From Cylindrotheca closterium (lineage: Eukaryota; Bacillariophyta; Bacillariophyceae; Bacillariales; Bacillariaceae), in the NCBI GenBank assembly GCA_933822405.4, contig CAKOGP040001725.1, positions 281,922 through 345,921 on the forward strand: a DNA stretch of 64,000 bases. Reading direction: 5' to 3'. Shown here in pieces: positions 32,389 to 59,706 of this stretch (positions within the stretch are counted from its first letter, which is position 1; each line of letters opens with the position of its first letter). The translations under genes were made by a program, and so were the position numbers. Below the pieces are notes generated by a model. The model searched no databases. It was not told the origin of the DNA and worked only from the letters and a program-made list of their open reading frames with translations.

Positions 32389-34107
32389 ATGAAGTTCTTG
32401 GACCACAGAGCTGTTCTGCGTTTCTCGTTCATTCTCGTCTTCGTCAATGCCGTTGTGGACGAGTCAGAAGATTATGCTCGTTTCTTCAACGAGCCACAAA
32501 CCATGCCTCGTGACGAGGGTCCGCTTCGACGAAGTAATCGTCCAATCAAAGGAAGCTCGAGCCATGCCTCGCCAGTTTCTTTCGCAGCCACCACCGAAGA
32601 GGAACAAACACTTCAAGAAGTTGAATTTGAGCGCAAAGAGGCACCAGCGATTTCGAAGGTTGCTTTAAAGTTTGCACGAGAAGATTGGCGAGACCGGCTA
32701 GTCTTTTCAGATCGTCCCACTACAGTCCCGTCCGAATCACCTACCAATGTGCCAACAAAGGAACCGTCGGAGTCACCCAGCATGATTCCATCTCAATCGA
32801 TCAGTCCAACGAATAATGACACTGTTGTTCCAGGACAGTTGATGGTGGGAGCATATTACTACCCTTGGCACGCCGACGATTTTCATCGAGGGTGAGTAGG
32901 TTTTGTTTTGATCAGAGCATGGAATAGTCAAGAGCTGACATTTTGCTCTTTCTTCATTTATTAATACACAGATATGGATATTTGCGAGAGGATTTGGAAC
33001 CACCTCAGCTTCCAGAGCTTGGAGAATATGACGACAGAGATAGAAAGACCATATGGAAGCACCTGCGATGGAGTCGACAGGCCAACATCAATCTATGGAT
33101 AACTTCGTGGTGGGGACCTCAAAGTCGATCGGACAGTGAGCATATGTTATTTTATGAAGTGTACACGATATACATCTTGTTTTCTAACATCATCTTGCTT
33201 TGTAGATACAACCAGAGAATTCATCCTGACTCATGATACCTTGCGAACACACAAGATCTCTGTATTCTACGAAACACAAGGTCGAATCCGTGAAAGTGAT
33301 GACTACTCGTTGCATCGAGTTGAGCGAGATATGAAGTTTTTATGCGATAATTACTTTCGGCACCCTAACTACTACAATGTGGACGATGTTGGAAAAGGTC
33401 GTCGCCCTGTTTTGTTCCTGTATCTGAGCCGAGGACTGGACAATCGAGGGTTGCTGCGAGCAACGACGGAACGTATGCGACAAGGGGTTCGAGATTCTTG
33501 CGGCAAAGAGTTGTACATTGTCGGGGATCAAGTCTTTGGCGGAACTGCGGAAAAAGATTTTGTCAACAACCCTAGACACTACTCTGCATTCCAACTTCTT
33601 GATGCCGTCACCAACTACGACGTCTATGGTAGTGTTGCACAGATTGTGGGACGCAAGGGTGGTACTCTAACGCAATCTCAAGTGCAAAACTACTACGAAA
33701 ACGAACAAGCGGAGTGGAAAGCTGCCGCTGAGAGATACAATTGCCAATTCATTCCAGCAGTGTCGCCTGGATATAATGATCTAAGCGTACGGCCCAGGGC
33801 AGCAAATCCACCGCTCTCCAGATCCCTTCAGGGACAAGAACCAGGGTCCTTGTTTCGAGAGGCGCTGAAGTATGCTGTTCCATTGGCTGACAATAGTGGC
33901 TTGGACAGCACTGCAACATCACAGCCCGATCGACTACTTGTTGTGAATTCGCTTAATGAGTGGCACGAGGATACCCAAATCGAACCGACCGTTGGGACTG
34001 CCTCCTCCACGCCAATAAATCACACGTTTGGTTTTACCTACGAAGGATATGGTACGAAGTATCTGGATATATTGAAGGAGGCAACAGACAGCAAATTGGT
34101 TGTTTGA
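32389..34107 (+). CDS. secreted GH99-like glycosidase, 3 exons
   Basis: Exons are 32389-32891, 32972-33135 and 33206-34107, with 80- and 70-nt GT-AG introns (522 aa). It has a signal peptide, then the cluster's shared head in diverged form (PIKGSS, later ISKVALKF...DWRDRL), a short Pro/Ser linker (PSESPTNVP), and the GH99-like domain from VGAYYYPWHADDFHRG. LWITSWWG, FYETQGRIRE and NSLNEWHEDTQIEP are present, with the catalytic pair at Glu474/Glu477. Splicing was set by alignment with the two intronless paralogues, and both joins restore homologous residues. Secretion contrasts with the membrane-anchored paralogue at 29 kb. Confidence 0.87.
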
Positions 34108-34642
34108 GATTCGTTGATGTGATGCATAGGATGATGATGGATGACCTATTGTAGTAGTAGAACAATGTTGAATAGAAAACCCTACGTCTTTGTGGCAATG
34201 GAAGACCCTTTTCTTAGCTTACATGAAGGCGCGTTGCAATTGCGCTTTTAAAATCGATTCGATGGAAGGCCACCCTTGTGGGCTATAGTCTATTGTGATC
34301 ACATTCTTATTATGCTTTTTAAATATGCATTCATTGGAAGGGGTATCCATGTGGGTGAAATCTGTTGTGATCACATTTTTCTATGTGAAACACCGATGCC
34401 AGTATCGGCAGGCGCTTGAAGATCTATGTATTTTTGTGACTCCAGAATCGTTGGGTCGGCATGCGCGATACTGTTAGTTAGAAACAAGAAGTTCGCAACC
34501 TTCTTTCACACCCCACATTCAAAATTCACACGACACAATAACAAACTCACAACTGAATCTCATACATTCATGATTCTGGCACAAACACAAATCGAAGCTA
34601 AAATTGATTCATATCACTTCACCATCATCTATACTTTGAAAG
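34108..34642. other. intergenic with a diverged direct repeat
   Basis: Two copies of a ~70-bp unit at about 34243-34311 and 34312-34380 share GGAAGG, GTGGG, TCT and TTGTGATCACATT. No gene is supported. Confidence 0.5.
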
Positions 34643-36235
34643 ATGCGATTACTGACAGTGTCTTCGATCAGCCTTTTCTTCTGCTGTAGCAGTTTCATGC
34701 TTGTCGTCTGTGCAAGTGATGCCGATGCCGACACACACAGCATTGCTGATGATTCAAGAAGTGAAACAAAGAGGAATAGATCGCGTGTCCTCAAAGGAAG
34801 CTCAAGGTACACATGGGATGACTCGATGTCATTGACTATGTCGACGTCAGCTTTGAAGTTCAGAAGTCTACAGGAGTTAACAATGGAGGATCTTGAAGAC
34901 CGCAAACGCCAACCGGTTGCGTCCAAAGATGACATGAGACTCAGTATTGGAGGAAGTTGGCGAGACAACCTTGTATTATCTCATCATCCATCGTCAGCGC
35001 CATCCGTCACAGCAAGACCGACGACTACACCTTCAAACCAACCAACTTCAAAACCCAGTTCTTCCCCGACAATCATGCCAACTATCAATGACGAGTTCAT
35101 TGCAGGCCAGCTCGTCGTCGGTGCATACTACTATCCTTGGCATGCGGATGATTTCCATAATGATGAAGGCTATTTACGTGATGACCTAGATCCTCGTCAG
35201 CAGCCTGTGCTCGGGGAGTATGATGACAGAGAAGAAAGCGTTGTCACACAGCACTTGCGATGGAGCCGACAAGCCAATATCAACCTATGGGTAACTTCGT
35301 GGTGGGGGCCCGGAAGTCAGTCGGATCAAACTACCCTGGAAAACATTCTGCCACATCCAAAACTGCGAAACCACAAGATTGCTCTCTTTTACGAAACACT
35401 TGGACGAATTCGGCCATCAGAAGATTACTCCTTGCAACGTGTAGAATCAGACATGCAACACATGTGTACGAATTTCTTCGATCACCCCAACTACTACACT
35501 GTCACTGACCTGGCAAATGGGCCTCGCCCAGTCGTATTCATGTATTTGAGTCGACATTTAGCGAATCGAGACCTATTGCGTGTCACCACCGAGCTCATGC
35601 GTGAGACTGTTCGCAATGCTTGTGGCAAGGAGTTGTTTATAGTGGGAGACCAAGTCTTTGGGTTCGCATCAGAGAAAGACTTTATCAACAACCCTAGGCA
35701 CTACTCTGCTTTCCAACTATTGGACGCTGTCACCAATTACGACGTCTATGGTAGTGTTGCTCAAATTGTGGGAAATAAAGGTGGAACTCTGACTCAATCC
35801 CAGGTCCAAGAATACTACCAAGGAGAACAGACTCTATGGAAACAAGCAGCAGAACAATACAACTGCCAATTCATACCATCTGTAAGCCCAGGGTATAATG
35901 ATCTCAGTGTCCGACCGCAAGAAGAAAATCCGCCACTGTCACGAGCTTTGGCGGGACAAGATCGAGGATCGGTATTGCGGGAGGCATTGAAGTATGCTAT
36001 TCCATTGGCTGACACGAGCAGTTTGGACAAGTCGGTTATTCAACCAAACCGGGTATTGATGGTAAACTCATTCAATGAATGGCACGAGGATACTCAGATT
36101 GAACCGGTTGTTGGTAATCCTGCGTCTTTTCCTGATGAGCTCACCTTTGGATTTGAATATGAAGGCTATGGAGATAAGTATTTGGAAATATTGCGAGTAG
36201 GAACAGAAAAAGAGATCGATGGGCTGTTGAGGTAG
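34643..36235 (+). CDS. secreted GH99-like glycosidase
   Basis: Single exon, 530 aa, ATG start, clear signal peptide ending near CASDAD. The shared head is well preserved: VLKGSS, RSLQEL, RKRQPVASKDDMRLS and SWRDNLV. A Pro/Ser linker (PSSAPS, TTPSNQPTSKPS) leads to VGAYYYPWHADDFH, LWVTSWWGPGSQ, FYETLGRIRP and NSFNEWHEDTQIEP, with Glu479/Glu482 as the inferred catalytic residues. It is closest to the preceding paralogue, and both share SAFQLLDAVTNYDVYGS. Extracellular alpha-mannan cleavage is the family expectation. Confidence 0.88.
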   Translation: MRLLTVSSISLFFCCSSFMLVVCASDADADTHSIADDSRSETKRNRSRVLKGSSRYTWDDSMSLTMSTSALKFRSLQELTMEDLEDRKRQPVASKDDMRLSIGGSWRDNLVLSHHPSSAPSVTARPTTTPSNQPTSKPSSSPTIMPTINDEFIAGQLVVGAYYYPWHADDFHNDEGYLRDDLDPRQQPVLGEYDDREESVVTQHLRWSRQANINLWVTSWWGPGSQSDQTTLENILPHPKLRNHKIALFYETLGRIRPSEDYSLQRVESDMQHMCTNFFDHPNYYTVTDLANGPRPVVFMYLSRHLANRDLLRVTTELMRETVRNACGKELFIVGDQVFGFASEKDFINNPRHYSAFQLLDAVTNYDVYGSVAQIVGNKGGTLTQSQVQEYYQGEQTLWKQAAEQYNCQFIPSVSPGYNDLSVRPQEENPPLSRALAGQDRGSVLREALKYAIPLADTSSLDKSVIQPNRVLMVNSFNEWHEDTQIEPVVGNPASFPDELTFGFEYEGYGDKYLEILRVGTEKEIDGLLR

Positions 36236-36680: not shown

Positions 36681-38863
36681 ATGAAAAACCCTCCAATACA
36701 CTATCTTGCGATTCTTGTGTTACTCTTGGGCGGCGGACCATATTCGTCTTATGCCTCTGACGACAAACACAAGCCAAAGACGATCAAGGGGGCTGAAAGC
36801 AGCCAACAAGAATCAGAAAGGCAATTATTTTTTGAAGACGGAGATGAAGGACCAGTGAGGAAAGATATCCCTTTGGTTTCGAAGGACGACATGAGATTAC
36901 CATTCTTTTCGGAATGGAGAGACAGGGTCAATCCACCATCTGAATCTGCACCAGTAACGGTCGGCGTTTCCAACATTCCCAGTGAAAGCCCTAGCTCACT
37001 GCCATCAGCAGCAACGGGCGCCGTTTCCAACGTTCCCAGTGAAAGCCCTAGCTCGCTACCTTCGGATGCTCCCACTGATAGCCCAAGTTCACAACCTTCG
37101 AATGCTTCCTCTGTATCAAATGTTCCAACCGGAGCTCCTAGCCCGTCACCCCCAACAGCAGAACCTACCCGAACAGCTGATCGACCCTTGAAGTGTGTGC
37201 AATCCAGAAACGGAAGTGGACTGACGATTGAACACTCGACACGATTTTACGCAGGCGACGTTCACTGCCTGTCACGAAACAATCAAGAAGCATATTTTGG
37301 ATATACTTGGACTAACCAGTTTGGCTTGTTTGTAAACGGCCAAAGTGTATGGGAAATTCCACAAAAAGATCTAGGAGCATCCGTTTTTCGATGGACCTTC
37401 CAAAGGGACGGAAATCTGGTTCTGCGAAGTCAGAATGATCAAGTAGTTTGGACTTCAGCGTCATGTTGTTCGAGCGACAGCCAACTCAGGGTGTCGATGG
37501 AACGAGTCTGGATTGAAAGCAGATCGGGATCACAACCATTTTACATGACACCACCCCCAACCCAACCACCACCTCCCACTCGGCCTCCCACCCGACGGCC
37601 CACTTCAAGACCTCAGCCAAATCCTACCCCACGACCAAATCCAGTTTCGAATCCACCACCAAGAGACTCTGCTGTCAGTTATGTTCCTGGGAAATTGACC
37701 AGAAACCAAAATGGATTGCTTTTAAGTCGGGGATTAAGAAGTCGGATTATCGCGAGAACCAATGATAGAGTACGCTTGGCCAATGGCTCCAATTCGAGGG
37801 ACAGATTTCACGGAGAACCAGATGGTGCAGCTGTCTTTCCCGATAGCAATGGTGGATGGATCTATGTCAGCAATTCGGAGGAAAACGGAGGACGTGGTGG
37901 GGTTGGTGCCATCTACTTTAACCGAAATGGAGATGTTGTCGACTACAAAATGCTCTTGCGGGGAACCACCCGCAACTGTTCCGGTGGAAAAACTCCATGG
38001 TACGTTCCCTTCCTTGCTTTCTTGCATTTCAATGCCTGCCAATCTCACATCTTTTCTTGTCTTGCTATCTTGTGAACAGGAATACGTGGGTATCGTGTGA
38101 AGAACATCGAGGTGGAAAGATTTGGCAGGTCGATCCAAAAGGCAAACGGTCTCCACAAAAGACATCCATGAGCCCAGATACAGGAGACTTTGAGGCATTT
38201 GCCTACGACGTTCGCAATCGCAGCAAACCTCGTTTCTTCGTCACTGAAGACAACAATAGAGGTGCGCTGCGTCGGTTCACTCCCTCCAATCCCAACTGGA
38301 ACGACCCGTGGAATATGCTGCATGGATCGGGTGCCCTTGATTATCTTGTGCTGCAACCTCGAAATGGAAATAAAAATGATGGAACGTACTATTGGACAAG
38401 AGATCGCGGCCATGCCGAAGGGAATGCCGAATCCTTTTATCATTTTTCGGAAGGTCTGGATGTACACAACAATGAACTGTACTTCACTTCCAAGACGCTC
38501 AAGTCCCTGTTCGTATTGAATTTGGATGGTGATACCTATAGACGCTTTTCTACGGATAGAGGTCTCTTTGATGGACAACCAGATCAAATGCAGCGACTGA
38601 TCAAGGGTTCCAATTCCCTTTTATATTTCTGTGAAGATGGCGGAAAGGAGGCTGGCATCCATGCACGTGATCGCAACGGGTGGTTCTATACTATACTCGA
38701 AGCTGCAATGGACAATCGAGAAACTTCAGGGTTAGCCTTTTCTCCCGACGGAAAACACATGTACTTTTCCTATCAAATGAGAGGGATCATCTTCGATGTC
38801 TGGCGGGAAGATGGACTGCCATTCTACGGCAAGACACTTGATGTCCATTATCACGAGAAATGA
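36681..38863 (+). CDS. secreted bulb-lectin-like + DUF839/PhoX-like protein, 2 exons
   Basis: Exons 36681-37999 and 38080-38863 (700 aa). Order: signal peptide, shared head (TIKGAE, ERQLFF, PLVSKDDMRLP, EWRDRV), Pro/Ser linker, a beta-prism lectin-like domain at about 168-287 with FQRDGNLVLRSQNDQVVW, a Pro/Thr/Arg linker, then the DUF839 propeller from about 332. The lectin motif follows the mannose-site pattern QxDxNxVxY except that the final Tyr is Arg. The propeller carries NCSGGKTPW-NTWVSCEE, like PhoX phosphatases, and GLAFSPDGKHMYFS. The intron lies inside this block (phase 2). A secreted metal-dependent phosphatase or phosphodiesterase is the family expectation; activity is unproven. 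Confidence 0.85.
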
Positions 38864-39611: not shown

Positions 39612-42600
39612 ATGACAAGGTCTTTCCTACACTGTCTTCCGATCCTTCTTTTATTCTTATTGAATGCCGCAATAAGTGCAGCTGATTCTTCCAACAACAA
39701 CGATCCAAAAACCAATGTTCGACGGCGACTTGATGGTTCTACTACTCCGAAGAATCATCGAACAACCACGAGAAACAAGTCAGAACACAAGTCCAAGTCA
39801 TCCAGCACAATCAAAGGGGCTGTCGACCGGCAACTGCTCTCAGACATGCCAATACGAAAAAGACAACCTGCTGTTTCAAAAGATGACTTGAAGATGCCCT
39901 TCATATCAACATGGAAGCAAGAACTGTTCGGGTCCGCTGATATCCAGGCCAATGCGCCAACTGACGCACCGAGCGCATTACCTTCCAACGCACCAAGTGA
40001 AGCTGCGACCAATAAGCCAAGTGGATCTCCTAGCGCATTGCCCACCAATGAACCAAGCCAAAATGGTAGTACATTCCCCTCCGCTGCTTCGAGTCAAGCT
40101 CCGAGCACATTGCCCTCCAATGCACCAAGTGAAGCTCCGACCAATAAGCCAAGTGGATCTCCTAGCGCATTGCCCACCAATGAGCCGAGTGAAGCTCCGA
40201 CCAATAAGCCAAGTGGATCTCCTAGTGCATTGCCCACAAATGAACACAGTGAAGTTCCGTCCACTAGTGCATTGCCGTCCACTGCACCGAGTCACGCTCC
40301 GAGCACTTTGCCGTCCACTGCGCCAAGTCATGCTCCGAGCACATTGCCGTCCGATGCACCAAGTACAGGTCCAACTGCACCTCCCACCGTTAGCCTAGTA
40401 CCCACCACTGCACCAAGTGAAGCTCCGTCCATGACGCCAAGTGATTCTGAATCTCCCAGTGCATCGCCCTCCAATGAGCCAAGCGGAGCTCCGTCCACCA
40501 GTGCGTTCCCTTCGCCTACGCCAAGTGACGCACCGAGCACATTGCCATCCAATTCACCAAGTGAAGTTCCGTCCAACGAGCCAAGTGAATCACCTAGCTT
40601 ATGGCCCTCCGACGAGCCAAGTGAATCTCCTAGTTCTTTGCCCACCGACGAACCAAGTGAAGCTCCTACCACTAGTACATCCCCCTCTACTGCGCCAAGT
40701 GATGCTCCGAGCAAACCGCCCTCCAATGCACCAAGTAAAGGTCCGACTGCATCGCCCACCATTAGTCTTGTGCCCACTCCTGCACCAAGTGCAGCTCCAA
40801 CTGCACCGCCTACCGCTACTCCTCTCCGAGTGGCTTGTGCGGGGGATAGCTTGACGCGGGGGAACATTGGGGTGTATCCTGGAGTCGACTACCCTACCCA
40901 ACTTGATGAATTGTTGGGCGCAGGCTTTGACACGTACAACTATGGAAAAAACTCTGCCAATGCCATTGACGGGTTTGGTACACCGTACATCAATACCCAA
41001 GACTTTCGAGCTTCCATAACTTTGGGTGCAGATATCTATTTGTTAATGCTTGGGACTAATGATGCCAAATATTGGAAGGCTGCCAGTCACAGATATGTCG
41101 CGGGTATGGAATGGATAATACGACAAGTTGAAGCAACTTCACCAGGCGTCCGAATCATATTGGCCATACCACCATGGGTCAAGACTCCAAACGATTTTGG
41201 AATCTCGAATGATATTTGGTTCAACGATATTCAACCAATCATACGGGCGGTTGCCTCAGCACAACAGGTAGAACTGGTGGACATGTACAAGGTGACTGTC
41301 AATCAACATGACATGTACACTGGCGACAAATTGCACCTCAATGAAAAAGGATACGCAGCGCTTGCTCAAGTTTGGCAGAGGCAGATCTTGTGCAACAATA
41401 ATGGTTTTTGTGATATTGGGGAGAGCTGTGAAACATGTCGTCAAGATTGCCTTGAGCAATGCGGAGGGAGGAAAAGACGAAAAGCGATAAGTGATAATGG
41501 AAGTGATTTAAAAATCAATGTTCGAAGGCTTGGTTCTACTCTGAAGAATCATCGAACAACCACGAGAAACCAGCCAGAACACAAGTCAGAAAAAAAGTCC
41601 AAGTCATCAAGCACAATCAAAGGGGCTGTCGACCGGCAACTGCTCTCAGACATGCCAATACGAAAAAGACAACCTGCTGTATCAAAAGATGACTTGAAGA
41701 TGCCCTTCATATCAACATGGAAGCAAGAACTGTTCGGGTCCGCTGATATCCAGGCCAATGCGCCAACTGACGCACCGAGCGCATTACCTTCCAACGCACC
41801 AAGTAAAGCTGCGACCAATAAGCCAAGTGGATCTCCTAGCGCACTGCCCACTATTGGGCCAAGCGAATATGGTGGTGCATTCCCCTTAGTTGCTTCAAGT
41901 CAAGATCCCAGTACATTGCCCTCCAATGCACCAAGTGAAGCCCAGTCCAACGCACCAAGTGGATCTCCTAGCGCATTGCCCACCAATGAGCCGAGTGAAG
42001 CTCCGACCAATAAGCCAAGTGGATCTCCTAGTGCATTGCCCACGAGTGAGGAAAGTGAAGTTCCGTCCACTAGCGCATTGCCATCCACTGCGCCGAGTCA
42101 CGTACCGAGCGAATTGCCGTCCACTGCACCGAGTCACGCTCCGAGCACATTACCGTCCACTGCGCCAAGTCATGCTCCGAGCACATTGCCGTCCGATGCA
42201 CCAAGTACAGGTCCGACTGCACCTCCCACCGTTAGCCTAGTGCCCACCACTGCACCAAGTGAAGCTCCGTCCATGACGCCAAGTGATTCTGAATCTCCCA
42301 GTGCATCGCCTTCCAATGAGCCAAGCGGAGCTCCGTCCATCAGTATGTTCCCCTCCCCTGTGCCAAGTGACGCACCGAGCGCATTGCCATCCAATGCACC
42401 AAGTGAAGTTCCGTCCAACGAGCCAAGTGAATCACCTAGCTTGCGGCCCTCCGAGAAGCCAAGTGAATCTCCTAGTTCTTTGCCCACCGACGAACCAAGT
42501 GAAGCTCCTACCACTAGTACATCCCCCTCTACTGCGCCAAGTGATGCTCCGAGCAAACCGCCCTCCAATGCACCAAGTAAAGGTCCGACCACATCGCCCA

Positions 42601-45156: not shown

Positions 45157-45454
45157 AAAAAGTGCTATAGTATTGAAGAAAGAGCAGATAGGACTTTATA
45201 TCTTGTATAACAGACTTTTCAATAGCACTTGTGGGAATCGTCGTGTGTTTCTTCACTAGTCCTTTATCGGACCGATTCTTCTGTTAGTGCGCTTTGAGAA
45301 GCTTACAGAGTCATTCCGATAGTGGGAAAGCCATCACTAGCTACTAGTAGAGCGGATTCTTCCGATTTCTGGTGCGCTATTATTGGCTTTTTTCTAATTT
45401 CAATCATAACCAAATAATGAGAAATATAAAAAGCCAGAATACAACAAGCCGTGG

Positions 45455-45625
45455 TCCATCACGATCGAAGGGCTGAAGACCGGCAATTGATTGTACAAGA
45501 GTGAGATCACCAGCCATGTACCAGCACAGAATATTTACCTACGGTTTCAAAAGAATTTTCATACAAACCGGACTGGAGGGACAAATTCTCGGCCATCGAA
45601 TTTCCCAACTGCCGACGACGGGTTG
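45455..45625 (+). pseudogene. relic of the shared secreted head module
   Basis: About 170 nt align with the head-coding region of the 52.65-kb gene (52818-52980). Shared strings include GACCGGCAATTG/GACCGACAATTG, ATGTACCAGCAC, TTTCAAAAG, GACTGGA..GACA and CAACTGCCGACG/CCACTGCCG. Frame is lost by stops and indels, and no signal peptide or catalytic domain remains. It is a dead member of the family. Confidence 0.7.
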
Positions 45626-46940: not shown

Positions 46941-47432
46941 AAACAAGCCAATGAAGTTACATATTTCCAATGATAGGTATCAGCAATGTATGGTATGGGA
47001 TTGAATCGGGAGTAGATCATGATACTGGTAACATAATGCATGCGGATACTATTACAAAACAACGCAATACCTGTACAGACAATAGCTTGATGGTACAGCA
47101 TAGTTACGGAATTATATATTGAATGAATATATATGGTTTGATACTTGTACTACTGTGCGTGTTGGTCACACATATGGGAACGACTAGTTCGATTGTCAAC
47201 AAATAGAAATGATGGGTAAAGGCATCGCAGCCGCCGGCCGGTCCCAGCGAGGTACGCGCACACTTCGTCAAATATTCATGTTAACGCCATACCGTGTATC
47301 AACGAATACAAGAGTTTCTCCTTGATCAAAGCACCTTAGCTTTCCGTGAGCTGCTGGTACTGTAGATAGAAGAGAGCAAAAGCCACGGCAAAAAGATCAG
47401 TGGTGGAATACGCCGTTGTTGTCTGCAGTCCA
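46941..47432. other. intergenic
   Basis: No gene seen. The last ~40 nt resemble the leader of the previous SGNH gene. Confidence 0.4.
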
Positions 47433-48713
47433 ATGAAAGAAAGGAGAAGAACACTACCCAAATGGAGTGATGCAGACGATGTGTCAGTGGAATCAGATTC
47501 ATCGATATGCTGTTTATCCAAAAGCCACAGAAAGAAGAAGATACTCATAATAATTCTGTTTCTATGCGTGGGAATGGTGGGCATGTATATATTGGCCCTG
47601 AATAAAAAGAAATCAGAGAAACGGAAAGAAATTGGAACAGATCAACAAGCGACGCAAGAAGACGTTCCCGTCGCTGTCCCCACAGATGCTCCAAGCAAAT
47701 TGCCCACCACAGCTTCTCCCACCGCATTGGCCTCCAATGCACCCACTAAAAATCCGACCACCGCGCCAAGTGACGCCCCGAGCGTATTGCCCTCCAATGC
47801 ACCAAGCGAAGCTCCGTCCACTGAGCCAAGTGAATCTCCTAGCGCGTTACCAACCAATCTGCCGAGTGAATCTCCTAGTGCACTGCCCACCATTGCATCA
47901 AGTGAAGCTCCGTCCAGTAGTTCAATGCCCTCCCCTGCGCCAAGTAATGCTCCGAGCAAATTTCCCTCCAATGCACCAAGTGAGGCTCCGACTGCATCAC
48001 CCACCGTTAGTCTTGTGCCCACAACAACACCAAGCGCAGCTCCGACTGCATCGCCCACCGCTGCTCCTCTCCGAGTGGCCTGTGCGGGGGATAGCTTGAC
48101 GCTGGGAAGAAGCGGAAATAGTGGTGCTTCCTACCCTCAACAACTTCAGGGATTGTTGGGCAGCGGCTTTGGAGTCCGCAATTATGGAAGAAATGCGGCT
48201 AATGCCATGGACGGTTTTGGTGTACCTTATATTGGTACCCCTAACTTTGCATTCTCCATGGACTTGAATCCCGATATCTATTTGCTCATGCTGGGAACAA
48301 ATGATATGAAATATTGGAGGGAAGCCAGTCACAGATATGCTGCGGGCATGAATCAGATAATGAAACAAGTCAGAGCAGCTTCACCAGGAGTCCGAATCAT
48401 ATTGGCAATACCACCATGGGTCAAGCCAAACGATTTTGGCATCTCCAATGACATTTTGGTGAACAATATTCAACCAAGAATACGAGAGATTGCCTCGGCC
48501 AATCAGGTAGAATTGGTGAACATGTATATGGCGACTATCAATCAACATGACATGTACAGTTTCGACAACTTGCACCTCAATGAAAAAGGTTATGCAGCGC
48601 TTGCTCAAGTTTGGCAGAGGCAGATCTTGTGCAACAATAATGGTTTTTGTGATATTGGGGAGAGCTGTGAAACATGTCGTCAAGACTGCCTTGAGCAATG
48701 TACACCAGTTTAG
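47433..48713 (+). CDS. membrane-anchored SGNH hydrolase with PS linker
   Basis: Single exon, 426 aa from the first ATG (the frame is open to a GTG eleven codons earlier). N terminus SSICCLSKSHRKKK plus a membrane helix matches the previous gene. This one also carries a ~130-residue Pro/Ser linker (NAPSEAPSTEPSESPS-like), so it combines the anchor of one paralogue with the linker of the others. Subtype B SGNH domain with ACAGDSLTLGRSG (Ser221), LMLGTND, LHLNEKGY and the six-Cys tail. Confidence 0.86.
   Translation: MKERRRTLPKWSDADDVSVESDSSICCLSKSHRKKKILIIILFLCVGMVGMYILALNKKKSEKRKEIGTDQQATQEDVPVAVPTDAPSKLPTTASPTALASNAPTKNPTTAPSDAPSVLPSNAPSEAPSTEPSESPSALPTNLPSESPSALPTIASSEAPSSSSMPSPAPSNAPSKFPSNAPSEAPTASPTVSLVPTTTPSAAPTASPTAAPLRVACAGDSLTLGRSGNSGASYPQQLQGLLGSGFGVRNYGRNAANAMDGFGVPYIGTPNFAFSMDLNPDIYLLMLGTNDMKYWREASHRYAAGMNQIMKQVRAASPGVRIILAIPPWVKPNDFGISNDILVNNIQPRIREIASANQVELVNMYMATINQHDMYSFDNLHLNEKGYAALAQVWQRQILCNNNGFCDIGESCETCRQDCLEQCTPV
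47661..48066 (+). repeat. coding Pro/Ser linker repeats
   Basis: Loose APS-x-x-PS units between the membrane stem and the SGNH domain. Confidence 0.7.
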
Positions 48714-49563: not shown

Positions 49564-51873
49564 ATGAGAAAGTCTTTCCTACGCTGTCTTCCTATCCTTC
49601 TTTTATCCTTTTTGGATGGTGCAAGCGCAGCTGATGCCTCGAACGAGGAACCAAGAACCAATATTCGACGGCTTGGTTCTAATTTGAATCACCATCAAAC
49701 AGCGACGAAGCCAGAATTCAAGTCCAAATCGTCCAGCGCAAGCAGAGGGGATTTTGGCCGGCAATTATTTTTTGAAGAAGATGCAGCGCCAATTCGAAAA
49801 AGGCAACCTGCAGTTTCCAAAGACAACTTGAAGATGGCATATGCATCAGCCTGGAGGGAAAGGTTGTTTCCACCATCTCAATCTCCCACTGCTACCGCGT
49901 CCAATGCGCCAAGTGATCCTCCGAGTGCATCGCCATCTCAATCTCCCACTGCTATCGCGTCCAATGCGCCAAGTGATTCTCCGAGTGCATCGCCATCCAA
50001 TGCTCCTACCGCGGCCATCCGAATTGCTTGTGCTGGGGATAGCTTGACACGGGGGAAGATTGGGGTGGATCCTGGAGTCGACTACCCTACCCAACTTGAC
50101 GAATTGTTGGGCGCAGGCTTCGACACGTACAACTATGGAAAAAACTCCGCCGCTGCCATTGGTGGTTTGAGTTTGTCCTACAACAAGACCCAAGAATTTC
50201 GAGCTTCCATAGCTTTGGGTGCAGACATCTACTTGCTAATGCTTGGGACCAATGATGCCAAGTATTGGGAGACAGACGGTCAAAAATTTGTCGCGAGTAT
50301 GGAATGGATAATACAACAAGTTGAAGCAACTTCACCAGGCGCCCGAATCATACTGGCGATACCGCCATGGATCATGGGAACGAGTTATGGAATCACGAAC
50401 GACGTCTTGCTGAAAAATATTCAACCAAAAATAAGAGAGGTTGCCTCGGCCCAACAGGTAGAATTGGTGGACATGTACAAAGCGACACTTGGTCTAGATT
50501 CACTTTTCGCTGCCGACCAACTGCACCTCAACGCCAAAGGACATGAAACTATTGCTCAAGTTTGGGAGAGGCAGATCTTATGCAACAATAATGGCAGATG
50601 TGATATTGGGGAGAGTTGTGAAACCTGTCGCCAGGACTGCCTTGAGCAATGTGAAGGTAGGAAAAGCGAAAAACAATCACGCAATGATGGAAGTGCTTCC
50701 TTGAACAATGTTCCAAGGCTTGGTTCAAGCTTGAAGAATCAGCGAACAACGAAGTCAGAATACAAGTCCAAGTCGTCCAGCACGATCAAAGGGGCTGTGG
50801 ACCGGCAACTACAATTAGACGCACCAGTACGAAAAAGGCAGCCTCTTGTTTCAAAAGACGACTTGAAGATGCCATACAAATCAGCCTGGAAGCAACAGTT
50901 CGGGCCCACTGATTCCCCGACTACTCAGCCAAGTCAGTCTCCTAGCTCATTGCCCTCCAATGCACCAAGTTATACTCCGACCGATGAGCCCTCCGATGCA
51001 CCCAGTTATAACCCGACTGATGAGCCAAGTCAATCTCCCAGCCAATTGCCATCCATCATACCAAGTGAATTTCCGACCAATCGGCCAAGTGAATCTCCGA
51101 CCAACTTGCCCTCCTCTACGCCAAGTAAATCTCTTGTGCCCTCCACTTCACCAAGTGCAGCTCCGACAGCATCACCCACCGCTACTCCTCTCCGAGTGGC
51201 TTCTGCGGGGGATAGTTTGACGCGGGGAAGAACCAGTAATCCTGGACTCACTTACCCTCAGCAACTTCAGGGATTGTTGGGCGGCGGCTTTAGGGTCCGT
51301 AATTATGGAAGAAATACTGCCAATGCCATTGAAGAATTTGGTGTACCGTACATCAATACTGCTAACTTTGGATTTTCCATGGAGTATGATCCCGATATCT
51401 ATTTGCTCATGCTGGGAACAAATGATGTGAGGTTTTGGCAGCAAGCCAGTCACAGATATGCCGCGGGCATGAATCGGATAATAAAACAAGTCAAAGCGTC
51501 TTCACCAGGCGTCCGAATCATAGTGGCGATACCACCGTGGGTCAAGACTCCAAACGATTTTGGAATCTCCAACGACGTTTTGGTCTACAGTATTCAAACG
51601 AGAATACGAGAGGTTGCCTCAGCCAATCAAGTAGAATTGGTGGACATGTACAAGGCGACTTTCAGTCTAGATTATTTGTACAGTGCCGACAACTTGCACC
51701 TTAACACCAAAGGATATGAAACCATGGCTGCAGTATGGGAGAGGCAGATCGTGTGCAACAGAAATGGTGTATGTGATGTTGGGGAGAGTTGCGAAACATG
51801 TCGCCAAGACTGTCTTGAGCAATGCACCGGGGTGAAGAATCCAAAAGAGATTCGTAATGATGGAAGTGACTAA
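49564..51873 (+). CDS. secreted two-domain SGNH hydrolase
   Basis: Single exon, 769 aa. Signal peptide, IRRLG, shared head (RGDFGRQLFF, RKRQPAVSKDNLKMAY, AWRERLF), a short PS linker, SGNH subtype A (ACAGDSLTRGKIG, Ser160), a six-Cys tail, then a second full head (TIKGAVDRQL, RKRQPLVSKDDLKMPY), a PS linker, SGNH subtype B (ASAGDSLTRGRTS, Ser551) and a Cys tail. The A-then-B order equals that of the 39.6-kb gene. After the last Cys tail the protein ends in GVKNPKEIRNDGSD, matching the start of the inter-domain segment GRKSEKQSRNDGSAS: a truncated third module. Extracellular esterase activity is inferred. Confidence 0.87.
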   Translation: MRKSFLRCLPILLLSFLDGASAADASNEEPRTNIRRLGSNLNHHQTATKPEFKSKSSSASRGDFGRQLFFEEDAAPIRKRQPAVSKDNLKMAYASAWRERLFPPSQSPTATASNAPSDPPSASPSQSPTAIASNAPSDSPSASPSNAPTAAIRIACAGDSLTRGKIGVDPGVDYPTQLDELLGAGFDTYNYGKNSAAAIGGLSLSYNKTQEFRASIALGADIYLLMLGTNDAKYWETDGQKFVASMEWIIQQVEATSPGARIILAIPPWIMGTSYGITNDVLLKNIQPKIREVASAQQVELVDMYKATLGLDSLFAADQLHLNAKGHETIAQVWERQILCNNNGRCDIGESCETCRQDCLEQCEGRKSEKQSRNDGSASLNNVPRLGSSLKNQRTTKSEYKSKSSSTIKGAVDRQLQLDAPVRKRQPLVSKDDLKMPYKSAWKQQFGPTDSPTTQPSQSPSSLPSNAPSYTPTDEPSDAPSYNPTDEPSQSPSQLPSIIPSEFPTNRPSESPTNLPSSTPSKSLVPSTSPSAAPTASPTATPLRVASAGDSLTRGRTSNPGLTYPQQLQGLLGGGFRVRNYGRNTANAIEEFGVPYINTANFGFSMEYDPDIYLLMLGTNDVRFWQQASHRYAAGMNRIIKQVKASSPGVRIIVAIPPWVKTPNDFGISNDVLVYSIQTRIREVASANQVELVDMYKATFSLDYLYSADNLHLNTKGYETMAAVWERQIVCNRNGVCDVGESCETCRQDCLEQCTGVKNPKEIRNDGSD
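50908..51195 (+). repeat. coding Pro/Ser linker repeats
   Basis: Short linker before domain B with units such as YTPTDEPSDAPSYNPTDEPS. A still shorter one, a duplicated SQSPTA.ASNAPSD.PSASP unit, lies before domain A at 49876-50022. Confidence 0.7.
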
Positions 51874-52649: not shown

Positions 52650-54417
52650 ATGAGAAAGCCATCAATACAATGTCTTCCGATCCTTGCGTTATTGTTGGAT
52701 GTTTCAAGCTCAGCCGATGCCTCGTCGAACTACGATGATTCGAAAACCAATTCTCAAAGGCTTGATTTGAGTCATCGTCGAACCACGATGAAGTCTGAAC
52801 AGAAGAAGTCCAACATGATCAAAGGGGCTGGAGACCGACAATTGGTGTTACAAGACGTAGATGTACCAGCACGAAAATCCCCGCCTACAGTCTCAAAAGA
52901 CGACTTGAAGTTTCCATATAAACAAGACTGGAAAGACAGGTTCTTGAATCCGCCATCTAATTCCCCCACTGCCGCTCCCTCGATGTCCGATGCGCCCACT
53001 GGAGCTCCTATTACATTCCCTTCCGATGTTCCTTCCGTGTCCAGTGTTCCTAGTGGAGCTCCGAGCTCAGTGGCTTCCAATTCTCCCAGCACGGGTCCCA
53101 GCTCATCACCTACCAAGACTATCAGTTATGTTCCAGGAAAGTTGACCAACTCCCAAAATGGAATGATTCTCAGCGAGGGACTCCAAAGTCGAATCATTGC
53201 AAGAGCCGATCAAAAAGTGCGCTTCAAGGATGGTTCCTTCTCACAAGAAGTATTCCACCAAGAGCCAGATGGTTCTGCCGTCTTTGCGGACCCAGATACC
53301 GGTGGATGGACATATGTGAGCAATTCGGAGCAGTTTCGAGGCAACGGTGGAGTTGGAGCCATTGTGTTTGATAAAGACGGAGAAGTAGTTGACTACAAGA
53401 ATCTGCTGCGAGGAACTTCGCGCAATTGTTCGGGTGGGAAGACGCCATGGTACGTATAAGTTGTGTTGCTGAAATGGGTTCCTCTGGTATGATTGAGATC
53501 GATTGAATGATTCACCATCTGATTCTTCTATTGTTTGTGCTTTTTATTTCGTTATTTGATTGGAAAGGAACACATGGGTATCATGCGAAGAGTGGCGGGA
53601 AGGAAAGATTTGGCAGATTGATCCGCAAGGGATACGGTCACCAGAAGTGACATCCCTGAGCCCGGCATTTGGAGACTTTGAATCCTTTGCCTACGATGTT
53701 CGCGATTTCGAGAAACCGCGATTCTTTGTCACAGAAGACAATAGACAAGGTGCGCTGCGGCGGTTCACACCCACCAATCCCAACTGGGATGATCCGTGGA
53801 CGATTCTACACGGGGATGGGACACTTGAATATCTAGTGCTGGTTCCACTTGGTGGAGGCAGAGACGACACTGTTGGGGCATACTATTGGACAACAGATCT
53901 AAACATCGCTAGAGCAAATGCCGAATTCTTTTATCGGTATACCGAGGGTTTGGACGTATACGACAACGAAATGTTTGTCGTCTCCAAGACGCAAAAATCA
54001 CTTTTCATCTTGGATCTGGATGGCAATACCTACAGACGCTTTGACACAGATTTTGGTCTCTTTGATGGGCAACCAGATCAGATGAAGCGGCTTATCAAAA
54101 ATGGTCCTTCCAATGTTGAATTTAGCAGCACATTTGACGCCAAGGAAGCTGAAGAAGAACCACTGCTGTATTTCTGTGAAGATAGTGGAGAAGAGAACGG
54201 AATCCATGCCAGGGATGCTAACAACTGGTTCTACACAATCTTGGAATCAAACAATGGCAGCAGGGAAACTTCAGGGCTTGCCTTTTCTCCGGATGGAAAA
54301 CATATGTACTTTTCGTATCAATTTCAAGGCATCATCTTTGACGTTTGGCGGGAAGATGGATTGCCATTCTACGGCAAGACACTCGATGTACATTATCACG
54401 CGCAACAAGGAAGATAG
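52650..54417 (+). CDS. secreted DUF839/PhoX-like protein, 2 exons
   Basis: Exons 52650-53449 and 53568-54417 (118-nt intron, 549 aa). The signal peptide begins MRKPSIQCLPIL, very like the SGNH genes' MRKS..RCLPIL. The shared head is complete: MIKGAGDRQLVL, ARKSPPTVSKDDLKFPY, DWKDRFL. A ~50-residue PS linker precedes the propeller from about residue 157 (SYVPGKL). NCSGGKTPW-NTWVSCEE spans the intron; RFFVTEDN, GLFDGQPDQMKRLI, LLYFCEDSG and GLAFSPDGKHMYFS follow. The PhoX-type family suggests a Ca/Fe phosphatase; the Cys of NCSGG matches a proposed metal ligand. Confidence 0.87.
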
Positions 54418-54809
54418 TCTGGATTGTGGTGTAAAGCATGAAGTGCAGACTTAGGTTAGATTTAGAGTTATGATAGATTTAGATTGCAATATTCAATATG
54501 CAGATTTTCAAGGCAACGTTGAATCTACTATAGTAGGATTAATATAAAATACAGTACAGTGTACAGTATATATTCATCTCGATGCGTCCCAGTAAGACAA
54601 AAAGTCGTTGGGATTGCGGAAAATTCTTGAAACTTGCGAAAATTCTGAACCGTGCAAAAAGAAACGGGCGCCAGCCGAGCATCTCGCCAAAATACCAAAC
54701 GTCACATGATTGACGGATCACTCATAATCTGCAAGTTTCGCTCAACAAACCGGAACATTTCATAGTGAGCGAACCTTGCTGTCCCATACATACATCATCC
54801 GCTAACAGA
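54418..54809. other. intergenic
   Basis: No feature seen. Confidence 0.4.
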
Positions 54810-56491
54810 ATGAGAAAGTCTACAAGTCACTACCTATCAATATTTGCACTTATTTCTTGGCAAGGCGGAGTTTCATCAAGTCTGGTTGAAGAAGTGGCCA
54901 TCTCTGCCAATCTGGACACCGAATCTGGAAATCAACAGAAACAAGACAATCGCAAGTTAAAAGAGAAAACTATCAAGGGGACAAGGAAGCTTACTGAGGA
55001 TTATTTACGACTACAACCTGAAGGAACATGGAGCGCCTGGACAAATGAACGACGTGTTCCTAAGAAGAAGGAGTCAATTTTGTACAACCGTGCTGACGGT
55101 GGAGTACCTCGCCCACTAGATATTCTCATAGACGTGCAAAGTCCCACATCGTCACCTAGCTCATCGCCTACACAGACAATAAGTTACGTTCCAGGAAAAC
55201 TGAACTTCAGTCAAAATGGGCTACTGCTGAGTGAAGGACTACAGAGTAGAATCATCGCCAAGTCGGCGGAGAAGGTGCAACTCGTTGATGGATCTTCCTC
55301 AAGCTATGGCTTTCATCGCAGTCCCGACGGCGCTGCAGTTTTTGCCGATCCAGATACTGGGGGCTGGATTTATGTCAGCAACTCGGAGGCGGCGTATGGT
55401 GATGGCGGCGTGGGCGCAATCTCTTTCAATGCAGATGGTGAGGTCGTTGGCTTTAAGATTCTCCAAGTGGGAACCTCGTGGAATTGTTCAGGAGGGAAAA
55501 CGCCATGGTACGTGTCAAGAGAAAAGAAATTTATCCAGGATGATACCGGTATCGATTTTTACTCATCACCTATTATATTTCATTCTCCTGTTCGTGTTTT
55601 CATCGGGACAGGAACACATGGGTATCTTGTGAAGAGTATTGGGACGGCAGAATCTGGCAAGTCGATCCAAAAGGACTACGCCCTCCCGAAGTGACATCTA
55701 TTAGCACCGACAATCTAGGATATTTTGAGTCATTTGCATACGACATACGCGATTTTGATACGCCTCGGTTCTTTGTGACAGAAGATTCTGAGTTCGGTGC
55801 ATTACGGCGGTACACCCCCTCCGATCCAAACTGGGATGATCCATGGTCGATTTTGCATGGGGAAGGAACGATGGATTATCTTGTATTGGAACCATCCGGT
55901 GGAAATCGATGGGATAGAGCGGGGACTTTCTCTTGGACGACGAACTTCCGGATTGGGCAAAACAGTGCCATTCGGTTTTATCAGCATACCGAGGGTCTAG
56001 ACGTATACGACAATGAACTCTTTATTGTCTCCAAGGCGCAGCGCTCTCTGTTCATTCTCGATTTGGACAACAATACGTATGAACGTCACTCGACCGATTC
56101 TGGTTTGTTTGATGGACAGCCCGACCAAATGCAACGCCTGATCAAGAATGGTCCTTCCAACGTTGAATCGAGCAATACATTCAAAGCCAATGAAGCTGAA
56201 GAAGAGCCTCTCTTGTATTTCTGTGAGGAGGTTGGTACAGCCAATGGCATTCATGCTCGCGACGCCAACGGATGGTTCTACACGATCCTTGAATCTTCGC
56301 AATATGGTAGAGAGACGTCTGGACTCGCATTTTCTCCTGACGGAAAGCATATGTACTTTTCGTATCAATCCGCGGGAATTATTTTTGATATTTGGCGAGA
56401 TGATGGGTTGCGCTTTTATGGAAAATCACTAGACGTTCATTACCATGAGAAACCAGATGTTCCAGACCAAGAAAGAGACATGTGGGCATAA
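54810..56491 (+). CDS. secreted DUF839/PhoX-like protein, 2 exons
   Basis: Exons 54810-55507 and 55612-56491 (104-nt intron containing a TACCGGTA, 525 aa). Signal peptide MRKSTSHYLSIF. The head is reduced: TIKGTRKL is clear, but the SKDDLK element is lost and the PS linker is only about ten residues. The propeller starts near 124 (SYVPGKL) with NCSGGKTPW-NTWVSCEEY across the intron, RFFVTEDS, FDGQPDQMQRLIKNGPSNVE, LLYFCEEVG and GLAFSPDGKHMYFS. It ends in a short acidic tail, RDMWA, shared with the next paralogue's RDMWS. Confidence 0.86.
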
Positions 56492-57936
56492 TAAAGGGTA
56501 CCGAACGTTGTGTACGGCAGGTTCGAAATCTGATAGTGGGCGTCGCAGGACACGCATACACATACCACACAAACCACATTTACAAGGTAGTGTAGATGTT
56601 GGAAATAAGCATAATTCATAATATGTTATTAGCTATAGCGACATTAGAGTATATGGAGACATTCTTAGTACCGGTATATAGATGTTTTCTTGAAGGAGAT
56701 GCCACACAAAGAGAATGGGACCGGAACGTCGATAACACGAGGTAGCAAGCAATGGCTTTGTCCAACAATACTTGAATGAATGATGGAGGAAGTATAGAAT
56801 AAATCACTGTGCGGCACTGGTCATACTTGTCAACTGTTTTGTCAGGAGGCCCACTGGCGAACGAAACCAACACTATCACGGTATCATATCATCACGCGAA
56901 AGTCATGAACTTGAACGATCGGCGGTACTGGTTGCAAGCTCATGGCGACAGGGTACGATACGAAACACGGCATAAGCCGATGAGTTGTGTTTCCCAAAAG
57001 ATAAAATGACGTTGACAAGAACGACGTTGACAAGAACGACGTTGACAAGAACCATTGACACACTGCATCCGTTGACAGAGCAGGAATTTAGTGGCATGGT
57101 TCGCAAAGGACGTTTTGTCAACTATGCCTTCCACCAAGACCCATCTCTTCTTCAGATTGTTTTTTAAATGATTGCGTCTTTGGATTCTGATCCGAACCAT
57201 ACATTTTGCAACTATAGTTTCTATTCCAGCTCGACAGGAAGATACGAATCATTACAGTGCCAAAAAGACCAAGGAAACTGTTTTTCTAGCACGTCGATTG
57301 CACCTGGTACTTGCAAGCGCAGCGCAAATCATCTTAGTGAAGAGCTTTTACCTGGACTTATAGATCATTGCGAAGTTCCTGCTTGCTTTGCCACTGAACA
57401 AAAGCAAACTTTTATTCTTTCTGGAATCTGATTTAGGATTTATATATAAAATGAGACGAATGCATGTTGTTGTGTTGTTTTCAAGGTCTCTATAAGCCAC
57501 TCATTTGCGCAGTCGAGTCTTCATCATTGGATTTCTGTGTGATCGTCGATAGGCAGTTTCAAATGAGAAAAATCATCTTCGTGGTCCAACTTCGTCCATA
57601 TATACTGCATATAAATGATAGTTCATCTTGCTTTGATTTCCAATCTTCGCGGATTCATCTCATTGGAAGTTTGGACAGGTGCAGTGTGTGTAGTGTGATC
57701 ATATCGTACACATGATGGGAAATTGATTTTCACCGGTGTTTTAACGGCACCGACGGAATTCGTTTATAGAATTTACCGTTCAACGCGCGGCGATTCATCC
57801 CGAAATCGCTGATATTGAAAATGAATTTTCACCATTTTCCAGACCCCTTTGCATCATTCTTTCTAAGCACGTGCCTTGACTATCAAAAGACTTATAACAG
57901 AAAAAGCTACACTATCGAGTGTCGATCCATCACAAA
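56492..57936. other. 1.4-kb stretch without a confident gene
   Basis: Contains TACCGGTA at 56669 and three copies of a 15-bp unit at 57008-57052. Short frames at 56985-57167 and 57168-57431 lack features and are not called. Confidence 0.4.
57008..57052. repeat. 3 x 15-bp tandem repeat
   Basis: Three exact copies of GACGTTGACAAGAAC in tandem, in a region without a gene. Confidence 0.9.
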
Positions 57937-59706
57937 ATGAAAACTTCTTCGAGTTACTGCTTACCTGTCCTTGCATTGCTTCTAAATCGTGGGCAACTAG
58001 CAGATGCCTCAAAGTCGTCTGAGAATGTAAACAACAACGACACCAATCCTAGAATGGAATATGCGAATGGTAATCCCAAGTCCAAGACAACAAGCAAAAT
58101 CAAAGGAACGGAAAGTGGTCATCTAGAAGATCAGCGTGAACTACAATACTCGGCAGGGCCCCCACGGAAACAACCAGCAGCTCAGACACCTCCTACCACC
58201 AATTCAAAAGGAGACTTGATCATTCCACATGAGGCAAAGTGGCCACTTTCCACGTCAACGACGACATGGGAGCAGGGCATGTTGTCACCAACAGAAGCTC
58301 CTTCGGAAACGCCTAGTGAAATGCCTAGTTTCTCGCCTACCAAGATTGCAAGCGCGACTCTTGCTGGCTTGAGCTACATTCCTGGAAAGTTAAACAACTA
58401 TCAGAACGGATTACTTCTGAGTGAAGGATTACAGAGTCGAATCATTGCAACTTCCATGGAAAAGGTTGAGCTCGCTGATGGGACCTATTCACGTTTTGGT
58501 TTTCACGATAGTCCCGATGGCGCTGCCGTCTTTGCGGATCCCGAGAGTGGTGGATGGAGTTACGTCAGCAACTCGGAACGAGAAAATGGCGATGGTGGTG
58601 TAGGAGCCATTGTTTTCAATGCGGATGGAGAAGTTGTGGGATACAAACACCTTCAAGTGGGAACATCTTACAACTGTTCGGGCGGAAAAACACCATGGTA
58701 GGTACTGCCAAGAAAATGTGGAGATGAATAACATGAAGCTGGTTTCCACAAAGAATCTCACCATTCTTTCTTTTTGAACAACAACAACAACAACAACGAC
58801 AATAATAATAATAATAACAGGGACACATGGGTGTCGTGCGAAGAGCACGACTATGGACGGATTTGGCAGGTGGACCCCACTGGACTCCGCCCCCCGGAAG
58901 AAACTTCGATGAGTGCCACCCTTGGTAAATTTGAATCCTTTGCCTACGACATTCGTAATTTTGACAAGCCACAGTTCTTTGTCACGGAGGATAACACTTA
59001 TGGTGCACTGAGACGGTTCACTGCTTCCAATCCCAACTGGGATGATCCCTGGTCTATTTTGCATGGAGAGGGTGTTTTGGAGTATCTAGTGTTGTTGCCA
59101 TCCACTGGAGATCGATGGGACGAAGAAGGAACCTACTACTGGACGGATGATTTGGACGCCGCCAAATCAAACGCCAGAAGTTTCTACATGCATACGGAAG
59201 GATTGGATGTGTACCACAATGAACTATTCTTGGCATCCAAGGTGCAATACTCTTTGTTCATATTAGATTTGGACAGCGACACCTACAAACGCTTCCCCAC
59301 AGATGTGGGTCTCTTTGATGGCCAGCCAGACCAAATGAAGCGACTCATTAGGGATGGCAATGTCGAAACCAGCAGCACGTTTGATGTCAATGAACCGGAA
59401 GAAGAACCCCTTTTGTATTTCTGTGAAGAATTGGGCGACTCCCAAGGGATTCATGCTCGGGATGCCAACAATTGGTATTACACTATATTGGAATCGTCGG
59501 AATATGGCAGAGAGACGACTGGATTGGCATTCTCTCCCGATGGAAAGCACATGTACTTTTCGTTTCAATGGGCAGGAGTCATCTTTGATATTTGGCGAGA
59601 CGACGGCTTGCCCTTTTATGGAAAGACCCTCGATGTTCACTACCATCATCGACCGGACGAGAATGATGAAGCAGCAACTCGAGGAGGCCGAGACATGTGG
59701 TCGTAA
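57937..59706 (+). CDS. secreted DUF839/PhoX-like protein, 2 exons
   Basis: Exons 57937-58697 and 58821-59706 (123-nt intron, 548 aa). Signal peptide MKTSSSYCLPVLALLL. Head diverged: KIKGTESG, QRELQY, a proline stretch, SKGDLIIP and W. Short linker PTEAPSETPSEMPS. Propeller from about 145 (SYIPGKL), NCSGGKTPW-DTWVSCEE across the intron, FFVTEDN, FDGQPDQMKRLI, LLYFCEELG, GLAFSPDGKHMYFS. The intron's 3' end is an ACA/AAT microsatellite running straight into the acceptor AG. Tail RDMWS. Confidence 0.86.
58777..58817 (+). repeat. trinucleotide microsatellite at a splice acceptor
   Basis: (AAC)n then (AAT)n runs into AACAG, the acceptor of the intron. The pyrimidine tract is upstream (TTCTTTCTTTTTG). 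Confidence 0.85.

Follow-up and report, generated by a model that had tools for sequence, protein, structure and literature searches.

The stretch of DNA analysed here (the window) comprises 64,000 nucleotides of one contig (C190, CAKOGP040001725.1) of the 47.6 Mb genome of the diatom Cylindrotheca closterium. Eleven genes, all on the same strand, lie between positions 32389 and 59706 and encode two GH99, four DUF839 and five SGNH proteins. Nine of them (the diverged DUF3 and DUF4 counted) begin with a common N-terminal segment, the head, and the other two are SGNH genes with a membrane anchor (Table 1). The head consists, in this order, of a signal peptide, a basic patch, (I/L)(K/R)G, the tripeptide R-X-L (RXL), RK, SKDxLK(F/M), W(K/R) and a Pro/Ser linker. 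Among the catalytic domains, that of GH1 matches PF16317 with 84.5 bits (cut-off 33, E 1e-23) and is thus of the GH99 type, and that of SG2 matches PF13472 (SGNH/GDSL) with 86 bits (cut-off 32.9). PF05787 (DUF839/PhoX) is matched by the precomputed full-length gene models P0125 and P0126, the single exons remaining below the cut-off; together with P0008 (GH0), P0125 and P0126 (DUF1) are the window's own proteins in the protein collection searched here. The headed GH99 genes share the catalytic domain of GH99 endo-alpha-1,2-mannosidase; their FNEWHE.TQIE region aligns with the solved structure 6zdc, which we take to be the human enzyme, and the Glu residues of EWHE.TQIE are presumably the catalytic ones. 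For the nine solved GH99 relatives listed, the best match begins at residue 165 or later, so that the head lies outside of it. The other headed genes carry catalytic domains of PhoX/DUF839 and SGNH (GDSL) hydrolases, but most close paralogues of these in the genome are anchored where the head would stand.

The similarity among the heads was assessed by comparing head pairs with 500 shuffles, after removal of the estimated signal peptide and the larger part of the linker. For the eight clearest heads (GH1, DUF1, DUF2 and five of SGNH genes), all 17 cross-family pairs scored above every shuffle (z 7.0-23.7); the corresponding counts were 3 of 9 for GH0, 2 of 7 for DUF4 and 0 of 7 for DUF3. In profile-profile comparisons the SGNH heads matched the DUF839 heads with E 6e-11 over 71 columns and the GH99 heads with E 5e-6 over 25 columns; the match between DUF839 and GH99 heads was weak (E 8e-4, probability 25%), perhaps because of the diverged DUF3 and DUF4 rows in the alignment. 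A hidden Markov model (HMM) was built from nine GH99 heads from outside the C. closterium genome (P0004, P0005, P0007, P0009, P0012, P0016, P0021, P0024 and P0025), two of which have named sources, a Bacillariaceae metagenome-assembled genome (MAG) and C. fusiformis, and was run over the 619 stop-to-stop frames of the window with at least 50 amino acids. Of the eleven claimed copies it recovered nine, which lie in seven frames with E<=2e-7 (single-copy domain E-values up to 6e-7), and missed 54810 (DUF3), which was unmatched, and 57937 (DUF4), which was marginal at 0.0012. The best reversed frame reached E 0.75, and no match up to E 1 was obtained with 242 reversed proteins. The nine training heads had first been picked with a profile that included heads of the window, so this test is not fully independent.

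Table 1. Head copies, a decayed copy and anchored genes of the window (positions within the 64,000 nucleotides; HMM values are E-values)
Feature	Positions	Strand	Evidence
GH99 gene, membrane anchor where others have the head (comparison)	29044..30768	+	hydropathy; Pfam
GH0 head, GH99 gene (P0008)	32389..32718	+	HMM 1.5e-20; QTL at the RXL place (relative P0007: RTL)
GH1 head, GH99 gene 34643-36235	34643..34990	+	HMM 5e-19; shuffle test; RSL
DUF1 head, DUF839/PhoX-like gene with bulb-lectin-like stretch	36681..36941	+	HMM 3.7e-11; shuffle test; RQL
SG1a head, first unit of two-unit SGNH gene 39612-43310	39612..39947	+	SG1 HMM 1e-16, two copies; shuffle test
SG1b internal head between two SGNH units, no signal peptide	41484..41756	+	HMM; shuffle test
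SG2 head, SGNH gene 43684-45156	43684..44022	+	HMM 1.8e-7; shuffle test
Decayed head copy, stop inside, ~325 bases upstream of SGtm1	45454..45614	+	tblastn 2.9e-5 over window
SGtm1, SGNH gene with membrane anchor; catalytic domain sister to SG2	45939..46940	+	hydropathy; tree
SGtm2, SGNH gene with membrane anchor	47400..48713	+	hydropathy; tree
SG3a head, first unit of two-unit SGNH gene 49564-51873	49564..49878	+	SG3 HMM 1.9e-16, two copies; shuffle test
SG3b internal head between two SGNH units	50659..50913	+	HMM; shuffle test; RQL at residue 414
DUF2 head, DUF839/PhoX-like gene	52650..52961	+	HMM 3.5e-13; shuffle test; RQL
DUF3 N-terminal region, DUF839 gene; only IKG and RKL left	54810..55163	+	own sequence: no HMM match
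DUF4 head, diverged, DUF839 gene	57937..58311	+	HMM 0.0012 (marginal); REL

A preliminary description of the window had proposed one N-terminal module in front of three unrelated catalytic families, and this is upheld: the head is confirmed, the similarity persists in profile-profile comparison (weakly for DUF839 and GH99), and all eight of the clearest sites are real by shuffles and HMM. Of the three weaker copies the one at 32389 holds, the one at 57937 is marginal, and the one at 54810 finds no support in its own sequence. Chance or composition as the source of the similarity is ruled out by the shuffles, the profile-profile tests and the HMM. The string RKRQPxVSKDDLK, put forward as the common signature, describes the SGNH copies, but the other heads vary (RKDIPLVSKDDMR, RKEAPAISKVALK). 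Neither is the head the start of all cluster proteins of the three families, since those encoded at 29044, 45939 and 47400 are membrane-anchored instead.

The anatomy was read from 22 heads, namely 12 fetched ones and those of the window, from which SG1b was left out as nearly identical to SG1a, with features chosen by eye after alignment. All 22 carry (I/L/A/S/M)(K/R)G, which was used as an anchor for cutting the heads out, and RK or a similar pair, which partly served the same purpose; (S/P/A)K-x-(L/M)(K/R)(F/L/M) is found in 18 and W(R/K/E) or YQ in 19. Between the two anchors R-X-L is present in 21 of the 22 heads, against 3.4 expected from shuffling, with Q, S, A, T, N, I, K or E as X; the heads being related, this count measures conservation and does not represent 22 independent trials. 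Two of the SGNH genes, SG1 and SG3, comprise two SGNH units each, with a second, internal head between the units that lacks a signal peptide. The RXL tripeptides of SG1 lie at residues 38 (RRL), 73 (RQL), 638 (RRL) and 675 (RQL) in the heads and at 1046 in the SGNH domain (4 of 5 inside heads), those of SG3 at 7 in the signal peptide and at 35 (RRL), 66 (RQL) and 414 (RQL) in the heads (3 of 4), and those of SG2 at 7 in the signal peptide, 37 (RRL) and 71 (RQL) in the head and 304 in the SGNH domain (2 of 4). That an internal head is kept in the two-unit genes is compatible with cleavage of the chain, which has been proposed for silica precursors with several units, without being proof of it.

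Silaffins, cingulins, frustulins, silacidins, Sin1 and SAPs have their propeptide site at an RXL that follows the signal peptide, and the papers name no protease for it (PMC4557024, PMC5525289, PMC5647440). RXL has been regarded as a motif that a specific endopeptidase may recognise in general (PMC4557024), and N-terminal RXL sites, said to match the propeptide cleavage site, had as of 2017 been reported only from biosilica-associated proteins (PMC5647440). The biosilica proteins resemble the headed proteins in having a signal peptide and then a stretch closing on R-X-L, and in being secreted diatom proteins; precursors with several units also have repeated RXL sites, as in the two-unit SGNH genes. 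In contrast to them, the head described here stands on enzymes and adds the RK..SKDxLKF..W motif, which is common to three families and exchanged between neighbours. PEXEL of Plasmodium (RxLxE/Q, cut by plasmepsin V) and the oomycete RxLR motif likewise combine a secretory signal with a subsequent RxL, but E, D or Q two places after the leucine is found in only 10 of the 21 RXL heads, so that the pattern RxLx(E/D/Q) does not hold for them, and a diatom has no host cell for export. Six heads searched against Pfam and NCBIfam gave only sub-threshold matches and nothing above a curated cut-off; a known named domain as the identity of the head was rejected accordingly. The signature had been presented as one without a known counterpart, which is true of its back half, matching no Pfam or NCBIfam family, but its front half carries the published diatom RXL motif. 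As to whether the head is a known pro-domain of just one of the families, it proves to be the N-terminal region of one GH99 clade, but no named domain matches it. The head is best filed under the diatom RXL pre-pro segment, notable for its occurrence on enzymes, its extra conserved motif and its exchange among three families, and the conservation of RXL makes a role in processing likely.

Head and membrane anchor occupy the same place. A signal-like N-terminal stretch was detected in seven of the nine headed genes (DUF3 and DUF4 fell below the threshold), signal peptides and anchors being called throughout by a crude hydropathy scan, and the head-less genes of the window were anchored in three of three cases. 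At 15 loci elsewhere in the genome, a count that includes neither the six distant GH99 loci of C113 nor three further loci, on C68, C57 and C1, 12 genes are anchored, one is headed (C90), the one on C152 is secreted-looking without a head, and the one on C13 could not be classed because its frame is cut. Among close paralogues the head thus replaces the predicted anchor, the two alternating from gene to gene. The C152 gene (L022) is followed by a very long in-frame repeat tail of PTSG type. The GH99-lectin proteins of C113 (L027, L029, L032 and L033) have a different secreted head (KLRRGS...RSL), with RSL in all four that were read; RXL would therefore be a wider feature of secreted proteins in this organism, and RXL alone is not a mark of the head studied here.

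Searches of the C. closterium genome with single heads, which give lower bounds, returned 8, 7 and 2 matches in three runs, all on C190. Heads were found only in the cluster and in one GH99 gene on C90 (protein P0011), and a genome-wide scatter of heads was discarded on these grounds. In the protein collection 8,000 candidates were scored for GH99, and among the best 120 of 1,130 matches at least 13 proteins are headed at E<=2e-6. Three belong to C. closterium itself (GH1, GH0 and the C90 protein, which also served to build the profile) and ten come from outside, among them P0004 (from the Bacillariaceae MAG, 79% identical to GH1), P0012 (from a transcriptome) and P0025 (from C. fusiformis). 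P0048 begins like the anchored gene at 29044, and the names of P0004 and P0048 are nearly consecutive (SGBAC_002959, SGBAC_002955), with contigs of equal length for the two; from this, the neighbourhood seems conserved. Among the best 120 of 255 DUF839 matches, the headed proteins are DUF1 (P0126, by construction of the profile) and, weakly (0.0019), P0124, an environmental relative of DUF3 that retains IKG...RQL. A search of the collection with the SG2 N-terminus, though not with the SGNH domain as such, yielded two proteins at E<=1 among 138 candidates, which were limited to 0.55-1.75 times its length; both are the window's own. Among the matches listed, headed DUF839 and SGNH proteins are therefore confined to this cluster, P0124 apart. 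The age of the head seems to differ among the three families, since it marks one GH99 clade and the DUF839 and SGNH cases were seen almost only here.

In a tree of 117 of the 120 GH99 rows (65 anchored, 17 secreted-looking and head-less, 13 headed, 11 truncated and 11 neither), the 13 headed rows form one clade with one truncated row (support 99), and one head change is counted when truncated rows are set aside. In the DUF839 tree (82 of 122 rows kept), a clade of six rows (support 81) comprises the five headed rows and a truncated one. In the SGNH tree of 8 rows, headed and anchored genes are mixed, with three changes and a clustering no stronger than that of shuffled labels; SG2 and SGtm1 are sisters at 99/98, yet their N-termini differ. 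The synonymous distance (dS) between the catalytic domains of these two is 0.19, and the head of SG2 is nearest to that of SG1 at dS 0.35. SG2 and SGtm1 become similar again in their DNA at +791 and +317, respectively, near the end of the linker. The SG2 linker resembles the repeat part of the solved OCM3 (9ufe) by composition, a likeness for which the E-value means little owing to low complexity. The decayed head upstream of SGtm1 (blastn 6.8e-13 in a search of 782 bases; HMM only 0.17), near which a weak match of 23 bases to the DUF2 start region is found at 45317-45339, looks like a fossil of head exchange. The earlier suggestion that N-termini are exchanged within the cluster is borne out by the sister genes SG2 and SGtm1 with their different N-termini and by this decayed copy.

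The DNA similarity among SGNH and DUF2 heads starts 5-7 bases before the ATG and ends at +276 to +282 (SGNH) and +261 (DUF2); that between SG3 and DUF2 extends to +451 and +445, which for SG3 is inside the linker. No adjoining DNA match was found upstream of this similarity, and other upstream matches fall in the ends of the preceding SGNH genes. A promoter that moved along with the head was rejected, given that the similarity starts so close to the ATG. Exon shuffling is contradicted for DUF2, whose head, linker and start of the catalytic domain lie in one exon (52650-53449; the next begins at 53568, the GT-AG intron having been placed by eye without RNA). The ratio of nonsynonymous distance (dN) to dS is 0.25-0.74 in the seven computable pairs out of 24 cross-family head pairs, and the lowest cross-family dS values (0.63-0.67) are those of the neighbours SG3 and DUF2. 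Between SG1a and SG1b, the heads differ by dS 0.07 and dN 0 and the catalytic domains by dS 0.39, identity falling to 67-68% around the beginning of the latter; as the heads are far closer than the catalytic domains, gene conversion is likely, too. The alignments and trees demonstrate a common ancestry of the heads, conservation of RXL and discordant histories of N-termini and SGNH domains, and we infer from them one gain in GH99, a later uptake by DUF839 and SGNH genes and continued exchange through the linkers. The direction from GH99 to the other families follows from the places in which heads were found, and a better sampling could alter it.

The explanation that we consider reasonably probable is that the head represents an RXL-type secretory pre-pro segment together with a conserved mature N-terminal motif, which was derived from GH99 and passed on to neighbouring DUF839 and SGNH genes; in it, cleavage, the direction of transfer and delivery to the wall are the parts that we infer. 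The signal peptide would bring the enzyme into the endoplasmic reticulum, and the basic patch and (I/L)(K/R)G would directly precede the RXL at which a protease trims the propeptide. RK..P..SKDxLKF..W(K/R) and the Pro/Ser linker would not be removed and would serve to hold the enzyme at the wall or in the extracellular matrix, or to guide it there. As the head takes the place of the cytosolic tail and membrane anchor of close paralogues, its gain could release an anchored enzyme. It would be old in one GH99 clade of the Bacillariaceae and would have moved as promoterless coding sequence to the neighbouring genes, with the start codon and the Pro/Ser linker as exchange points, and in the two-unit SGNH genes the internal head might allow the chain to be cut into two enzymes.

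Several observations weigh against this explanation. RXL comprises only three residues, the one exception among the 22 heads (GH0, with QTL) lacks its R, and its role 'remains to be proven' (PMC5647440). DUF3 and DUF4 fail the hydropathy scan used for signal peptides and anchors, itself a crude one. Absence of the head does not always mean an anchor, given the distant C113 proteins with another secreted head, and in the collection 17 of the remaining 104 GH99 rows and 10 of the remaining 77 DUF839 rows look secreted without it. Of the five inner branches of the SGNH tree only two have good support, and gene conversion among the SGNH domains is another possible source of its topology; synonymous sites are saturated in 17 of the 24 cross-family head pairs, and the direction from GH99 to the others rests on the coverage of one collection.

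Alternatively, the conserved part could be a tag that remains with the enzyme and binds the wall or silica, RXL being incidental. The basic patch, rich in K and S, is reminiscent of the lysine-rich stretches used for targeting in frustule proteins (PMC9650480, PMC4557024), and the internal heads, which lack a signal peptide, have been retained, SG1a and SG1b being free of amino-acid differences over 47 codons; but this identity may stem from gene conversion, and an R and an L retained around a free X in 21 of 22 heads have the look of a protease site, so that we regard a mere tag as rather unlikely. The head could also be a true pro-domain, which folds against or inhibits the catalytic domain until its removal, as it is N-terminal and conserved and contains RXL and dibasic RK sites; the same head, however, precedes three unrelated catalytic families over Pro/Ser linkers of very different length, which makes a specific fit unlikely and this possibility quite improbable. 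That only a signal peptide and a low-complexity linker are shared, or that the heads converged, is very improbable indeed: such peptides and Pro/Ser linkers are common among secreted diatom proteins, the unrelated head of the C113 proteins also has RSL, and DUF3 and partly DUF4 fail the shuffle tests, but the similarity persists when the estimated signal peptide and the greater part of the linker are excluded, and nine of eleven copies are detected by the HMM from outside the genome, for which the reversed controls are clean.

Returning to the RXL-type pre-pro segment, the genome was searched for proteases that could act on it. PF00026 gave at least nine matches on five contigs, and four of five aspartyl proteases were compared with solved structures. 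Plasmepsin V was the best match for three of the four, namely those on C447 (L081, 2e-13), C224 (L082, 7e-12) and C124 (L078, 2e-15), and for the latter two it was the only molecule below 1e-7; the protease on C267 belongs to the saccharopepsin/cathepsin D type. Near their C-terminus, the frames on C447 and C224, but not that on C124, contain a hydrophobic stretch. Membrane-bound plasmepsin-V-like proteases have been described in oomycetes, and a Phaeodactylum protein stands in the tree of the same 2011 paper (PMC3116508). A search of the open-access literature returned no paper joining plasmepsin V, silica and diatom. The plasmepsin-V-like proteases of C. closterium are candidates for the RXL protease, which is a lead and not a result. 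It is interesting to speculate whether the head is a mobile secretion licence, through which an enzyme loses its tether and takes the RXL route to the wall, with a plasmepsin-V-like RXL protease, and whether RXL, RxLR and PEXEL form one ancient RxL-trimming system that here sorts enzymes and not effectors; we hold this wider scheme to be possible, though doubtful. Literature searches, not aimed at every wall proteome, gave no data on an association of headed proteins with wall or biosilica.

RXL processing has so far been discussed for silica-associated proteins, and a conserved RXL head on three enzyme families, inherited separately from the enzymes, would extend this route to enzymes that modify wall or matrix. 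SG2 and SGtm1 provide a natural test set, a near-identical enzyme with a head or with an anchor, and candidate proteases can be named for the processing step.

Further features were seen in the window. DUF1 (36681-38075) contains a bulb-lectin-like stretch, DRPLKCVQ...GDVHCL...FGYTWTNQFGLFVNG, much like the repeats of the GH99 array on C113 (loci L027-L033), which represents a second module common to the DUF839 and GH99 families; the source name of P0126 is bulb-type lectin domain-containing. The SGNH units of 39612-43310, 43684-45156, 45939-46940, 47400-48713 and 49564-51873 have a Cys-rich C-terminal tail (CNNNGxCDIGESCETCRQDC). On the minus strand, an open frame of 1,843 residues at 11234-16765 comprises several repeats of a VDFMV-containing unit, which we take to be DEP-domain-like.

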